Assembly (NCBI GenBank): GCA_910575105.1
Contig: CAJTDK010000004.1
Span: 62,001-126,000, forward strand
DNA: 64,000 nt
Source of the DNA: Lachnospiraceae bacterium
Lineage (GTDB): Bacteria; Bacillota; Clostridia; Lachnospirales; Lachnospiraceae
Direction of reading: 5' to 3'
The notes under the pieces were generated by a model, which worked only from the letters and a program-made list of their open reading frames with translations, was not told the origin of the DNA and did no database searches. Within the stretch, counting starts at the first letter, position 1. Each line of letters starts with the position of its first letter. Below, one piece after another: positions 56,296 through 63,826 of this stretch. The position numbers were made by a program, and so were the translations under genes.

Positions 56296-56355
56296 AGAAA
56301 CAGGCAATGGAACTAATCAGAGTTGTCTATGAATATAACCAAATAGTGGGTTGAT

Positions 56356-56460
56356 GTTTTCCGAGAGAGATCTGTCGCAGTACAGGCGCCGAAGAGGCAA
56401 GCTTCTGTGTGTTGGTGGCACACTGGCGAGTGAAACTTTCAGGCAAAAGGACCGGGAAAC
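56356..56460 (+). ncRNA. Glycine riboswitch aptamer
   Basis: Hallmark conserved segments GCGCCGAAGAGGCAAG (about 56386-56401) and AAACTTTCAGGCAAAAGGAC (about 56433-56452) are present in the right order. GTTTTCC (56356-56362) and GGGAAAC (56454-56460) close the P1 stem. Only one clear aptamer is visible; the next 70 nt may hold a reduced partner. It is followed by a terminator at 56530-56574, so glycine binding should allow readthrough into grdX and the operon. Confidence 0.88.
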
Positions 56461-56529
56461 GTACCACATTCTGAATCTTGTGCTGTATGGTAAGCGTTTA
56501 ACAGACCAATTATCGGGGCAAAAGACAGG

Positions 56530-58412: not shown

Positions 58413-59723
58413 ATGGCTAAATTAAAAGTAGTTCATTACATCAATCAGTTCTTTGCACAGATTGGTGGAGAGGAAAAAGCAGATTATCCGGCAGAGATCC
58501 GCGTTGGCGAGGTTGTTGGACCGGGTATGGCATTGACACAGAAATTCGGCGATGACGCTGAGATTATTGCTACTATCGTATGTGGCGATTCATATTTTAA
58601 CGAGAATCTGGAAAAGGCTAAGGCGGACATCCTAGCGATGGTTAAGGAGCAGGCTCCGGACGTATTCGTAGCAGGACCGGCGTTCAATGCGGGACGTTAC
58701 GGCGTTGCGTGTGGAACGATCGCGGCAGCGGTTCAGGAAGAGCTTGGAATCCCGGCTGTAACCGGTATGTATGTTGAGAATCCGGGCGCAGATATGTTCA
58801 AGACCCAGGTTTACATCGTTTCCACAAAGAACAGCGCGGCAGGTATGAGAGACGCGGTTTCTAAGCTTGCTCCGTTAGCGGTTAAGGTGGGAAGAGGAGA
58901 GGCGATCGGCGCATCCGCACAGGAAGGCTACATCCCGAACGGCGTTCGTGTGAACTTCTTCGAGAAGGAGAGAGGCTCTAAGAGAGCGGTTAAGATGCTC
59001 CTTAAGAAGCTGGCGGACAAGCCCTTTGAGACAGAGTTCCCGATGCCTGATTTTGACAGGGTTGACCCGAATCCGGCAGTTAAGGACTTAGCTCACGCTA
59101 AGATTGCCCTTGTGACATCCGGCGGTATCGTGCCGAAGGGAAATCCGGACCACATCGAAAGCTCCAGCGCGTCCCACTACGGCGAGTATGACATCGCAGG
59201 AGTTATGGATCTTACAGAGGAGACATACGAGACCGCTCACGGCGGATACGATCCGGTATATGCTAATGAAGACTCTGACCGCGTGCTGCCGGTTGACGTT
59301 CTTCGTGATATGGAAAAGGAAGGAAAGATCGGGGAGCTTCATCACCTGTTTTACACAACGACAGGAAATGGAACTGCAGTTGCATCCTCCAAGGCATTTG
59401 CGGCAGAATTCTCTGCAAAGCTTAAGGCAGACGGTGTTGACGCGGTAATCCTCACCTCCACATGAGGTACCTGTACTCGTTGCGGTGCAACGATGGTTAA
59501 AGAAGTAGAGAGAGCAGGAATCCCTGTAGTACATATCTGTACGGTAACTCCTATTTCCATGACAGTAGGCGCTAACAGAATCGTGCCTGCTATCGCAATT
59601 CCACATCCTCTTGGAAATCCGGCTCTGGATAAAGGTGAGGAAAAAGAACTCCGCCGCAGGATTGTAGAGAAAGCGCTCGACGCCCTCACAACCGAGGTGG
59701 ACGGACAGACAATATTCGATTAG
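58413..59723 (+). CDS. grdB: Glycine reductase component B selenoprotein GrdB
   Basis: 436-residue selenoprotein, the large subunit of protein B. An in-frame TGA at 59463-59465 (codon 351) encodes selenocysteine in 'LTST-Sec-GTCTRCGA', and reading continues in the same frame to the TAG at 59721. Without recoding the gene would be split into 350 and about 86 residues. The CxxC after Sec and the downstream 'ICTVTPISMTVGANRIV' block are conserved in the family. It needs SelB and an mRNA SECIS hairpin directly after the TGA. It attacks the GrdE-bound glycine and passes carboxymethyl to GrdA. Confidence 0.95.
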
Positions 59724-59867
59724 AGCACTTGGCGAGATCTTTTCGAGCTTAGTGCAAAACACATCTGTCCACTTGACGAAACATTGAACACTTGGCGAGG
59801 TATTATCTAGCCTAGTAAGAAAGCTCACCCTTGCGGTGTGTTCTTTCGAGCTGAGTGGAGCAGATGC
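59724..59867. repeat. Structured repeat element upstream of trxB
   Basis: A hairpin of GCACTTGGC/GCTTAGTGC type (about 59725-59755) is followed by a 106-nt unit (59761-59867). In that unit ACATCTG plus CCACT (59761-59773) pair with AGTGG plus CAGATG (59854-59866). Inside lie a CACTTGGC/GCCTAGT stem and a CACC/GGTG hairpin. The same unit occurs twice in the spacer before grdC. It ends 10 bp before the trxB ribosome site. Confidence 0.65.
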
Positions 59868-59893
59868 TACCTTATAAAGGAGAGTAACAGACA

Positions 59894-60838
59894 ATGAGCA
59901 AAATTTATGATGTTATTGTTCTTGGTGCAGGTCCTGCCGGTTTGGCGGCGGGACTGTACGCAGGAAGGAGCCGTCTTTCTGTTCTGATTATTGAAAAGGG
60001 ACAGGACGGCGGACAGATTGCAATTACGGATGAGATCGAGAACTACCCGGGACAGATCGTTGAGGGCGAGTCAGGCCCGTCCCTGATCGCAAGAATGACC
60101 GAGCAGGCTAAGAAGTTTGGTGCTGAGAGAGTATCCGATACCATTAAGGAAGTAAGCCTTGATGGCGAGGTTAAGATCTTAAAGAGCGAAAAGGCTGAAT
60201 ATCAGGGCAAGAATGTGATCATTGCCACCGGTGCGCATGCAAGGCCGATCGGCTGCAAGGGAGAGGCAGAGTTTACTGGAAAGGGTGTTTCCTACTGCGC
60301 GACCTGTGATGCGAACTTCTTCGAGGACTTTGAAGTGTATGTTGTAGGCGGTGGCGATTCCGCTGTTGAGGAAGCGATGTACCTGACCAAGTTCGCAAGA
60401 AAGGTAACGATCATCCACAGAAGAAATGAGCTGCGTGCGGCAAAATCCATCCAGGAGAAAGCGTTCAAGAATCCGAAGATCGCATTTATGTGGGATTCTG
60501 TTGTGGAGGAAGTCGGCGGAGACGACATCCTGCAGTGGATGAAGGTTAAGAATGTTAAGACCGGCGAGATCACTACGGTTGAGGCTGACGAGGACGACGG
60601 AATGTTCGGTGTATTCGGATTTATCGGAACGATTCCTAACAGTAAGCCGTTCGAGGGCATTATCGATATGGATGAGCGCGGATATATTAAGACGGATGAC
60701 GATATGCATACCAACATCCCGGGCGTATACGCAGCAGGCGATGTGCGCATCAAGAGTCTCCGTCAGGTAGTAACGGCAGCGGCGGACGGCGCGATCGCGG
60801 CAGTTCAGGTAGAGCGCAGCATGTCGGATTACTTCTAA
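59894..60838 (+). CDS. trxB: Thioredoxin reductase (glycine reductase-linked)
   Basis: 314-residue FAD/NADPH flavoprotein. FAD motif 'VLGAGPAGLAAGLYA' (about 8-22), redox pair 'YCATCD' (Cys135, Cys138), NAD(P)-binding 'VVGGGDSAVEEA', and C-terminal FAD motif 'GVYAAGDVR'. It reduces the adjacent thioredoxin that regenerates GrdA. The position inside the grd operon is as in other Stickland-fermenting clostridia. It is preceded by a structured repeat element, and AAAGGAGAG precedes the ATG. Confidence 0.94.
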   Translation: MSKIYDVIVLGAGPAGLAAGLYAGRSRLSVLIIEKGQDGGQIAITDEIENYPGQIVEGESGPSLIARMTEQAKKFGAERVSDTIKEVSLDGEVKILKSEKAEYQGKNVIIATGAHARPIGCKGEAEFTGKGVSYCATCDANFFEDFEVYVVGGGDSAVEEAMYLTKFARKVTIIHRRNELRAAKSIQEKAFKNPKIAFMWDSVVEEVGGDDILQWMKVKNVKTGEITTVEADEDDGMFGVFGFIGTIPNSKPFEGIIDMDERGYIKTDDDMHTNIPGVYAAGDVRIKSLRQVVTAAADGAIAAVQVERSMSDYF

Positions 60839-60952
60839 GATGTATCATTGCTCATGAAGTAAGCGTGCTTAAGTTCCGGCAGATGTGGAAATGCTTTGCG
60901 CTGATGCGTCAGGCATATTCTATATATTTTATAAAGTAAGGAGGAGATTCCA

Positions 60953-61270
60953 ATGTTAGATTTAGACAAGACCAATTTTGAGGCAGAGGTGCTTAAGGCA
61001 GAGGGATATGTATTCGTAGACTTCTACGGTGACGGATGCGTTCCGTGCCAGGCTCTGATGCCGAAGGTACATGAATTTGCAGACACCTACGGTGACAAGC
61101 TGAAATTCACGTCCTTGAACACAACAAAGGCACGTCGTCTTGCTATCGCACAGAAGGTTCTTGGACTTCCGGTTATGGCAATCTATAAGGATGGAGAGAA
61201 AGTAGAAGAACTGGTTAAAGATGACTGCACACCGGAGACGATTGAGGCGATGATTAAGAAATACGTTTAA
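60953..61270 (+). CDS. trxA: Glycine-reductase-type thioredoxin (GCVPC)
   Basis: 105-residue thioredoxin. The active site reads 'GDGCVPCQ' in place of the canonical WCGPC, the variant known from glycine reductase operons. The cis-Pro loop '[12 protein letters not shown]' is standard. It passes electrons from TrxB to the oxidised selenide-sulfide of GrdA. AAGGAGGAG precedes the ATG. The 239-bp gap to grdA holds small hairpins (for example GCAGCTTTAGCTGC) but no gene. Confidence 0.93.
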
Positions 61271-61509
61271 ACAGGCGTTTTCTCTATCATATAATATCAA
61301 TTTTTACAACAGTTCAGTCGGACATGATGTGTGATATGCTCTGTTCATGCTTGCATGGTAAAGAGAATATCATACATCATGGAATGGAGCAAAGCACCCA
61401 TTTAGCGAGAAACGTAGCAGCTTTAGCTGCGGAAGAGCTGCGTAAGCAGCGGTTTGGAGCCTGGCTGAACGCAAAACAAACGAACATCAATGAAAGGAGA
61501 AGAATAATT

Positions 61510-61983
61510 ATGGCTATATTAGAAGGAAAAAAAGCAATAATTATCGGTGACCGTGACGGAATACCGGGACCGGCTATCGCTGAATGTGTTCAGACAGCCG
61601 GCGCGGAAGTGGTATTCTCATCAACGGAATGTTTCGTCTGAACGAGCGCAGGCGCAATGGATCTGGAAAACCAGAAGAGAGTTAAGGAGTTTGCTGAGGA
61701 ATACGGCGCAGAGAATTTAGTAGTAATTCTCGGTGCAGCAGAAGGCGAAGCTGCAGGCCTTGCAGCAGAGACTGTTACAGCAGGAGATCCGACTTTCGCA
61801 GGTCCGTTGACAGGGGTCCAGCTTGGACTCACGACATATCACGTTTGTGAACCAGAGATGAAAGAAGAGTTTGACGAAGCAGTTTATGACGAACAGATCA
61901 GTATGATGGAAATGGTACTCGACGTTGATGACATCATCAGTGAGATGAGCGCCATCAGGGATGAGTTCTGTAAGTTTTTATAA
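61510..61983 (+). CDS. grdA: Glycine reductase selenoprotein A (GrdA)
   Basis: 157-residue selenoprotein. An in-frame TGA at 61639-61641 is codon 44 and encodes selenocysteine in the redox motif 'STECFV-Sec-TSAGAMD', with Cys41 as partner. The reading frame continues to the TAA at 61981. The position matches characterised GrdA proteins. GrdA accepts the carboxymethyl group from protein B and presents a ketene equivalent or thioester to protein C. AAAGGAGAAG precedes the ATG at 61510; an open frame running upstream to 61324 is not coding. Confidence 0.95.
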
Positions 61984-62005
61984 ACGATAAAGTTGGCTTA
62001 AAATG

Positions 62006-62045
62006 GGGCAGACCCGATGGTGACCCGCCGTGGGTCTGCCCTCTT
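62006..62045 (+). terminator. Hairpin between grdA and grdC
   Basis: Perfect 10-bp stem GGGCAGACCC (62006-62015) with GGGTCTGCCC (62032-62041), then TCTTT. It may partly terminate, raising grdA levels relative to grdC/D. Confidence 0.65.
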
Positions 62046-62051
62046 TGTGTA

Positions 62052-62256
62052 GAGCACTTGGCGAAATATTGAACACTTGGCGAGGTATTATCAAGCCTAG
62101 TGAGAAAGTTCACCCTTGTGGTGTGCATTTTCGAGCTTAGTGCGAACCACATCTGACCACTTGGTGAAACATTGAACACTTGGCGAGGTATTATCGGGCC
62201 TAGTGAGAAAGTTCACCCCTACGGTGTGTTCTTTTCGAATCTAGTGGAGCAGATGT
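62052..62256. repeat. Two structured repeat elements upstream of grdC
   Basis: Two successive copies of the unit also found before trxB. The first is about 62052-62145, closed by GCACT/AGTGC. The second, 62149-62256, is closed by ACATCTG and CCACT (62149-62161) pairing with AGTGG and CAGATGT (62243-62256). Each holds the core stem CACTTGGC...GCCTAGTG and a CACC/GGTG hairpin. The element ends 17 bp before the grdC ribosome site. Confidence 0.7.
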
Positions 62257-62287
62257 AACCTCTAATTATAAGAAAGGCGGAAAACCA

Positions 62288-63826
62288 ATGAACAGTGTAA
62301 TTAAAGGCGCAAGCTATGTACTGGCACATACCCCTCAGATGGTGGTATATAACGGAACAACTCAGACGACAGAAAGGATCGTCAATCCGGAGTCTGAATA
62401 TTTAAAGGAATTAGAAAGCCATCTGCGTTCTTATGAAGAGTGCGTGAATTACTGGCCGAATCAGGTATATATCGGAAACGCAACGCCGGAAGACCTTGCA
62501 GGCGTAGAGTTCCCATACTATGACAAGGCAAAAGAGGGTGCCCAAAGATACGGAAAATACGGCGAGATCATGCCGGAGGAGGAGTTCATCCTTCTCGTAC
62601 AGGCCTGCGATCAGTTTGAAGTTGTAAAAGTTGATAAAGAATTCGTAAGCGCCCACAAGGCAGCACTTGCAGCGGACCCGATCATCACAGAGGACATCAT
62701 TGCAAGGGTTGAGGAGGGCGTGGAGCTTTCCGAGATCGAAACAGCGGTGAAGGATGAGCATGCAGAAGGGATCTATGTTGCAGGAAAGCTTGTAGCATGT
62801 GTAAAGAGGGCCCACGATATTGACGTGAACTTATCTGCGCATGTTATGCATGAGAATCTGATGAGCAAGGCATCCAGTGTGCTTGCTTTATTATACGGCA
62901 TAAAGAATGCAGGGATCAGCAAGGACGATGTGGAGTATGTCATTGACTGTGCGGAAGAGGCATGCGGTGATATGAACCAGAGGGGTGGCGGTAACTTCGC
63001 AAAGGCAGCGGCAGAGATCGCGGCGCTTAACAATGCGACAGGCTCCGACTCCCGCGGTTTCTGTGCAGGACCGTCCCACGCCCTTATTGAGGCGGCAGCT
63101 TTAGTTAAATCCGGCGCGTACAAGTGCGTAGCCGTTACCGCTGGCGGATGTACGGCAAAACTTGGAATGAACGGAAAGGATCATGTAAAGAAGGGCCTTC
63201 CGATCTTAGAGGACTGTCTGGCAGGCTTCTGCGTGATATTGTCTGAGAACGACGGCGAGAATCCGGAGATCAACCTTGACATCTTAGGACGCCATACGGT
63301 AGGGACCGGAAGCGCTCCGCAGAACGTTATCGGAAGCCTTGTTGCAGACCCGCTTGAGAGAGCCGGACTCAAGATCACTGATATTGACAAATTCTCTCCG
63401 GAGATGCAGAATCCGGATATCACAAAGCCGGCAGGAGCAGGAGACGTTCCGCTTGCGAACTACAAGATGATCGCGGCGCTGGCAGTGAAGCGCGGTGAGT
63501 TAGACCGTAAGGAGTTAGCGTCATTTACTACAGGACACGGCCTTACCGGATGGGCGCCGACACAGGGACATATCCCGTCAGGCGTACCCTACATCGGATT
63601 TGCGAGAGAGGATATCCTTGCAGGTAAGATCAAGAATGCCATGATCATCGGAAAGGGAAGTCTGTTCCTTGGACGTATGACCAACTTGTTTGATGGTGTT
63701 TCTTTCGTTATCCAGGCAAATACAAAGGCAGAATCGGAAGCAGCGGCAGGTGTGTCTGAGGAAGAAGTAAAAGGATTGATCGCAAAAGCGATGAAAGATT
63801 TCGCCGCATCCCTGCTGGAAGAGTAA
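62288..63826 (+). CDS. grdC: Glycine reductase component C, GrdC
   Basis: 512-residue beta subunit of protein C, related in fold to FabH/thiolase-type condensing enzymes. It takes the carboxymethyl-selenide from GrdA, forms an acetyl-enzyme thioester and, with GrdD, releases acetyl phosphate. Family-like segments: 'YVIDCAEEACGDMNQRGGGN', 'GPSHALIEAAALV', 'GHGLTGWAPTQGHIPSGVPY'. AAAGGCGG precedes the ATG. grdD follows after 14 bp. Confidence 0.93.
   Translation: MNSVIKGASYVLAHTPQMVVYNGTTQTTERIVNPESEYLKELESHLRSYEECVNYWPNQVYIGNATPEDLAGVEFPYYDKAKEGAQRYGKYGEIMPEEEFILLVQACDQFEVVKVDKEFVSAHKAALAADPIITEDIIARVEEGVELSEIETAVKDEHAEGIYVAGKLVACVKRAHDIDVNLSAHVMHENLMSKASSVLALLYGIKNAGISKDDVEYVIDCAEEACGDMNQRGGGNFAKAAAEIAALNNATGSDSRGFCAGPSHALIEAAALVKSGAYKCVAVTAGGCTAKLGMNGKDHVKKGLPILEDCLAGFCVILSENDGENPEINLDILGRHTVGTGSAPQNVIGSLVADPLERAGLKITDIDKFSPEMQNPDITKPAGAGDVPLANYKMIAALAVKRGELDRKELASFTTGHGLTGWAPTQGHIPSGVPYIGFAREDILAGKIKNAMIIGKGSLFLGRMTNLFDGVSFVIQANTKAESEAAAGVSEEEVKGLIAKAMKDFAASLLEE

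Follow-up and report, generated by a model that had tools for sequence, protein, structure and literature searches.

Correia-type elements, RUP and ERIC are examples of MITEs. Stem-loops at the 5′ end of transcripts have been reported as mRNA stabilizers (excerpted text of PMC7509114), and for REPs a role in stabilizing mRNA is a hypothesis according to the abstract of PMC3733652, whose main text lacks the words Firmicutes, Clostridi- and Lachnospir-. Here we analyzed a 64-kb stretch of Lachnospiraceae DNA (the window) in which an earlier note had pointed out three repeated units in two spacers of a glycine reductase operon. We propose that these elements are tandem and nested copies of a Lachnospiraceae repeat family, which we call HP and which may be a functional analogue of REP elements.

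The operon carries a glycine riboswitch (56352-56464) and a SECIS_4 element (59466-59503), both detected with Rfam 15, and the end of GrdB, TrxB, TrxA, GrdA and GrdC were matched by NCBIfam models, the 85-residue GrdB end passing the cut-off only for the wider selenoprotein B subfamily model. The elements sit in the grdB-trxB and grdA-grdC spacers, where we found a 107-nt repeat family at 59740, 62025 and 62128, with ungapped identities to the first copy of 69% and 90%. This family, together with the stems, confirms the three units (one before trxB, two before grdC) that had been described from the sequence. The 107-nt repeat resolves in turn into modules of HP, a 29-nt imperfect hairpin with consensus NRCTTRRYGA-loop-GARYYTAGYN, so that the core unit is smaller than the unit of about 105 nt first proposed. 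Its stem presents, in order, four pairs, a T·T mismatch, three pairs, a tandem G·A/A·G mismatch and a closing pair with the loop. What had been taken for distinct outer and inner stems is one motif nested in itself: the outer stem (CCACTTGG.../...CTAGTGG) is an HP whose loop holds the insert AACATTGAA-HP-AGAAAG-CACC/GGTG hairpin, and the inner stem (CACTTGGC/GCCTAGTG) is the HP of that insert.

Using a model of the hairpin trained on 46 sequences (R1), we detected four HP cores in the window, with E values from 1.9e-6 to 1.3e-3, all on the forward strand. The best of them is a simple copy at 59726-59754 (41.4 bits, E 1.9e-6; itself a training sequence of R1, L001), which the earlier note had not listed beside its three units. 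It is the first hairpin of a double unit in the grdB-trxB spacer, starts 2 nt after the GrdB stop codon (TAG, 59721-59723) and folds into the expected structure at -8.6 kcal/mol, a modest stability. The second part of that double unit is a composite at 59762-59866, bounded by the arms CATCTG (59762-59767) and CAGATG (59861-59866), with outer HP arms at 59770-59779 and 59846-59857, a weak nested HP at 59789-59817 (27.8 bits) and, by sequence pairing, the CACC/GGTG hairpin of the insert module at 59826-59838. In the grdA-grdC spacer, unit A (62055-62142) has outer HP arms at 62055-62064 and 62131-62142 that enclose a nested HP at 62074-62102 (38.5 bits) and a CACC/GGTG hairpin at 62111-62123. 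Unit B (62149-62256) is bounded by ACATCTG (62149-62155) and CAGATGT (62250-62256), and contains outer HP arms at 62158-62167 and 62235-62246, a nested HP at 62177-62205 (37.8 bits) and a CACC/GGTG hairpin at 62214-62226.

The pairing plan described for the three units thus holds for the stems, with two corrections. The ACATCTG arms are missing from unit A, and the plan is not fully conserved in the trxB-spacer composite, which is partly decayed (its outer right arm reads AGCTGAGTG and its nested copy ends in TAGTA) and whose minimum-energy fold departs from the plan internally. The folds are more stable than those of shuffled sequences, with z values of -3.5 (59757-59868), -2.3 (62052-62145) and -1.9 (62146-62257). 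Eleven composites from the genus adopt a three-way fold with 98.6% of all cells paired and double changes in three of the seven pairs of the outer helix; covariation among these eleven is weak, being reached by 45 of 500 shuffles. As had been noted, the units do not look like terminators: there is no U-tract after them, a simple terminator scan makes no call there, and we rejected a rho-independent terminator on the lack of the U-tract. By-eye comparison of the spacers within the genus revealed neither terminal inverted repeats nor a target duplication at the window copies. Besides, the trxA-grdA spacer (61300-61480) carries another repeat-like element (ACAGTTCAG...CTGAAC, CATTTAGCGAG and GCAGC hairpins), which in sister species is present, shortened or nearly absent.

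The module itself is under structural constraint, as judged from how its bases change. In an alignment of 46 copies, hand-chosen for diversity, 99.5% of cells are paired and six of the eight pairs change on both sides. The covariation score was 0.451, against 0.223 in shuffled alignments, and none of 500 shuffles reached it, while the number of pairs with double changes was reached by 29 of 500. CTT, GA, GA and TAG were fixed by the search patterns, so the ten invariant bases of this alignment are built in. When the fetched loci were scanned with these ten bases fixed, 187 of 242 matches had all five variable pairs in Watson-Crick form and 26 had four, most loci having been fetched with a pattern that fixes many of the same bases; the reversed-sequence control gave no five-pair and one four-pair case among 49 matches. 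Among the 86 of these matches that lie outside the fetch pattern, the same R-Y exchanges occur. With the mismatch positions left free and the fetch-pattern copies removed, GA/GA occurred in 82 of 474 matches and T·T in all 82, versus GA/GA in 0 of 156 in the reversed control, in a set to which R1, a model biased towards these very bases, had contributed some of the loci. Pairs thus change while mismatches stay, and this led us to reject quasi-palindrome correction alone, which would also have repaired the T·T and G·A mismatches. Regarding the strand, among 299 copies we counted 16 G·T versus 5 A·C pairs on the CTT...TAG strand (p 0.027), with 22 other mispairs, an excess which indicates that CTT...TAG is the folded strand, as RNA or as single-stranded DNA.

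HP is an intergenic, dispersed, multi-copy palindrome, with 19 of 200 clusters lying inside called frames of more than 120 codons. In the window's own genome, the first copies in the pta-ackA spacer (two copies), in the triple array of contig C2 and at C5:113957 are sense and start 1-2 nt past stop codons; weak copies were also found at C5:120592 and C5:120698, the latter antisense in a called 185-codon frame. R1 detected HP in 6/6 genomes of the genus (E up to 0.1, 9 to 18 copies per genome), in 28/120 genomes of the family (E up to 0.001, up to 31 copies) and in 3/249 genomes of the phylum, namely the window's own genome and two out of three other members of the family that were listed. A pattern search gave matches in 17 of 150 family genomes and none with the reversed control pattern. 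One of these 17, G005, has its matches beside rRNA genes and no R1 match. At one of its loci (L024), the antisense strand carries, directly before the 16S rRNA, an HP-like palindrome whose loop is extended by a stem and which may be an unrelated processing stem; the flanks of another locus (L035) are nearly identical, so this is probably a second rRNA operon. A named scan retrieved HP in at least 120 stretches. Among the 80 matches listed, titles were mostly of Lachnospiraceae (Butyrivibrio, Acetatifactor, Enterocloster, [Clostridium] symbiosum and others), plus some titles of lower resolution and a Heliobacteriaceae MAG; among viral contigs, only 2 stretches matched. In this MAG (L056), which falls outside the main family, HP variants are linked to CCCTCTCC...GGTGAGGGGG palindromes. 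The earlier idea of a structured, repeated, RNA-like element is supported by these further copies and by the covariation.

Rfam 15 at gathering score matched only SECIS_4 and the glycine riboswitch in the window, and its three sub-threshold matches in 59700-62300 (E up to 5) all lie away from the elements; in 16 loci from relatives it returned only 16S rRNA and tRNA. Literature searches gave no description of HP among the matches listed, and a text search for five HP DNA words matched 158 papers, of which the 20 listed were, judging by title, primer or other chance matches. The earlier remark that no described family has this form is in line with the absence of Rfam 15 matches at the elements, and HP is apparently a so far undescribed repeat family of gut-type bacteria.

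It had been suggested that the units set subunit ratios in the glycine reductase operon, and the comparison across relatives does not support this. HP is present in both grd spacers of the genus wherever these are covered, in 6/6 and 5/5 genomes (one of the latter decayed; the sixth genome, G153, was read only into trxB). The number of units, their tandem copies and their inserts differ within the genus, while the compared portions of the Grd and Trx proteins share 94.7-100% identity. At 23 GrdC loci from 22 family genomes (1.5 kb on each side where the contig allows, one locus at a contig edge, the trxB spacer lying outside), HP was found only in the two loci of the window's genus, so here it is a genus-level acquisition and not an ancestral part of the operon. 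An element specific to grd was rejected on the same grounds, with no HP found around grdC in other genera, and a grd-specific subunit-ratio role is not supported; a putative role in processing or stability, which had also been put forward, is plausible. The spacer holds a better candidate for setting a GrdA excess, a GC-rich terminator-like hairpin after grdA at 62005-62042 on the forward strand (-30.4 kcal/mol, z -4.8); its T tail is weak, and the simple terminator scan leaves it uncalled. Of the 20 non-genus loci readable upstream, 18 have, in the 260 nt before grdC, a hairpin of at least 15 kcal/mol that is followed by a T-rich tail.

HP occurs in four architectures, as defined by class rules of our own, set after viewing the sequences. 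In class a, TGGTATAAT is followed by 5 nt and HP, often in tandem. Class b is CATTGAR-HP, then often a GTTC...GAAC hairpin, and class c comprises MITE-like elements in which a long stem is capped by HP. The window belongs to class d, GAG-HP1-CGARCC-arm-HP2-arm', and among 53 double units the arms pair with a mean stem of 4.1, compared with 2.4 for shuffled partners (maximum of 200 shuffles, 2.9). Of 23 class a clusters (with TATAAT or a close variant), 20 point the same way as the downstream gene and 0 the opposite way (by copy, 22 to 1 and 15 to 1, 37 to 2 together), a bias that in part follows from having a promoter, as the class is defined by its TATAAT. Class b clusters are co-directional with the downstream gene 15 to 2, of 20; classes a and b are both small. 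Class d follows the upstream gene 17 to 5 and the downstream gene 16 to 8, of 25 clusters. We observed no orientation bias in class c (19 to 22, 45 clusters) or in the unclassified clusters (39 to 33, 87 of the 200). The remaining clusters of each class have no neighbour or lie inside a called frame of more than 120 codons; two of class a and three of class b are antisense inside such frames. Sense orientation is thus pronounced in the promoter-linked and CATTGAR classes and less so in the class of the window. Pooled non-MITE clusters were sense versus antisense 28 to 19 (p 0.24), a figure that, with the bias visible after splitting by architecture, we no longer read as against an RNA.

The position of the copies points in the same direction. 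Among 307 copies, orthologous ones included, 27 have a TATAAT 5-6 nt before HP; on the other side, no copy has an antisense -10 within 12 nt. In this same set, sense stop codons (frames of at least 90 codons) lie no more than 13 nt before 30 copies, at 1-3 nt in 16, compared with 8 on the antisense side. An extended -10 (TGn) accompanies 23 of 26 TATAAT boxes, and further upstream most loci are unrelated by eye. Over 101 loci, the HP strand showed positive GC skew in 60 and negative in 41 (p 0.07), and coincided with the majority coding strand in 61 versus 40 (p 0.046).

Sense orientation, promoter spacing and strand asymmetry favor a role as RNA, and dispersal and nesting make HP REP-like. 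We therefore lean towards HP being a REP-like, repeat-spread mRNA hairpin that would shield RNA ends or bind a protein, a reading of the sequence patterns to which we give somewhat less than an even chance. Weighing against it are the lack of orientation bias in the unclassified and MITE-like clusters, the moderate bias of the window's class, the antisense copies inside called frames, the modest stability of HP, the weak covariation in the eleven composites and a copy number that is free to vary among sister species. HP would work as the single-stranded RNA of the CTT...TAG strand. At promoters, its stem would begin at the expected transcription start, as we infer from the distance to the -10 box, and give the mRNA a base-paired 5′ end. 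Within operons, where HP often starts within a few nt of a stop codon, it could shield processed ends, protecting the upstream 3′ end from 3′-5′ exonucleases and the downstream 5′ end from RNase J-type decay, with a possible effect on the expression of trxB and grdC. A candidate protein would perhaps read the T·T and tandem G·A mismatches. A bolder version, in which HP is a portable Lachnospiraceae RNA end-signal, read by a dedicated putative protein, adopted by promoters, spacers and transposons and multiplying by self-nesting, is in our opinion doubtful.

The foremost alternative, possible but on balance unlikely, is a selfish REP/MITE-like DNA repeat, with HP as the core and its structure serving mobility, moved as single-stranded DNA or by hitch-hiking on transposons, with the grd copies lacking a host function. 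The earlier note had considered a mobile RNA-like repeat, and mobility fits well: HP units show turnover among sister species and are found nested in the loops of other HPs, and the family distribution is patchy (28/120). The class c element of genome G111 measures 174 bp and carries terminal inverted repeats as well as HP at its apex, and five of the seven elements recognised in 40 loci have at least 7/8 identical flanking bases, that is, 8-bp target duplications (checked by script in the MITE class only); two of the five measure 244 bp and contain an insert in the HP loop. Both orientations of HP occur in MITE-like elements, and the trxB-trxA spacer of G057 contains a class c-like element that is missing from the three other relatives compared and from the window. 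GNA-type triloops, which are stable in DNA hairpins, occur in some copies and would suit such a route. Against a purely selfish repeat stand the strong sense orientation of the promoter-linked and CATTGAR classes, with their fixed 5-6 nt spacing to -10 boxes, and the lack of a linked HUH transposase: Y1_Tnp is present in 7/17 pattern-positive (a set that includes G005, not confirmed by R1) versus 13/17 pattern-negative genomes, and 30 Y1_Tnp loci had no HP nearby. A RAYT/Y1 transposase as mobilizer was rejected for want of this association. In L084, two class c elements flank a gene, which raised the idea of an autonomous element; we discarded this, as the gene, judged from its translation alone, reads as a host thiamine pyrophosphokinase-like protein and not as a transposase.

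Some further observations concern the MITE-like elements. Elements with different ends (L254-L265 and L286-L292 in G111, L266-L273 in G115 and L274-L285 in G060) have in common a core made up of ACGYCGG-HP-TCCGCTRCGT and a GAGCGAGAGCG hairpin; their long stems are largely copy- or subfamily-specific. Rfam 15 gave no match in six other loci of this kind.

That HP is an RNA binding site for a regulatory protein or a small molecule, with the HP genes forming a regulon, seems improbable. The T·T found with GA/GA in all 82 copies does resemble a recognition surface rather than a device for mere stability. However, ten of the 17 genes extracted after TATAAT-linked HPs were scanned and the nine with a Pfam match belong to unrelated families; moreover, the copies come single, tandem and nested, with no conserved expression platform seen. 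Least probable is a double-stranded DNA operator bound by a repressor at the transcription start: the palindrome does overlap the expected start in class a but the G·T/A·C asymmetry and the retained mismatches point to a single strand, and many copies lie in operon spacers beside a stop codon.

Were the mRNA hairpin reading true, an abundant gut and rumen family would have a repeat-borne RNA signal that is missing from Rfam 15 and that sits at promoters and in central-metabolism operons such as glycine reductase and pta-ackA. Its retained mismatches make a candidate binding protein directly searchable, and the occurrence of one hairpin in promoters, spacers and MITEs alike would illustrate how RNA control elements can come from a mobile repeat.

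By comparing HP with known systems, we find partial likeness to three of them. Like the 5′-terminal stabilizer stem-loops of the ompA, papA and aprE leaders, it is a hairpin at or near an expected 5′ end, the start site of HP being deduced from the -10 spacing. To our knowledge, however, the known 5′ stabilizers are single leaders and not a sequence-conserved family across unrelated genes and operon spacers. The class c elements of G111 are alike to MITEs in their 174-bp length, terminal inverted repeats and 8-bp target duplications, but HP is common to elements with different ends. With REP/BIME (PMC3733652), HP shares a 20-40 bp palindrome that is intergenic, often near stop codons, often in pairs or tandem, dispersed and plausibly transcribed. 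It differs from the GTAG and CGTC super-families in that the flank composition of 163 copies holds no GTAG or CGTC tag, and from the GTAG super-family also in having no association with RAYT (Y1 tyrosine transposase). Some class c elements have, by eye, CGTC beyond the outer stem. Finally, unlike REP/BIME, the pairs of the window are direct and not head-to-head, and HP has T·T and tandem G·A mismatches, a promoter-linked class and copies nested in its own loop.
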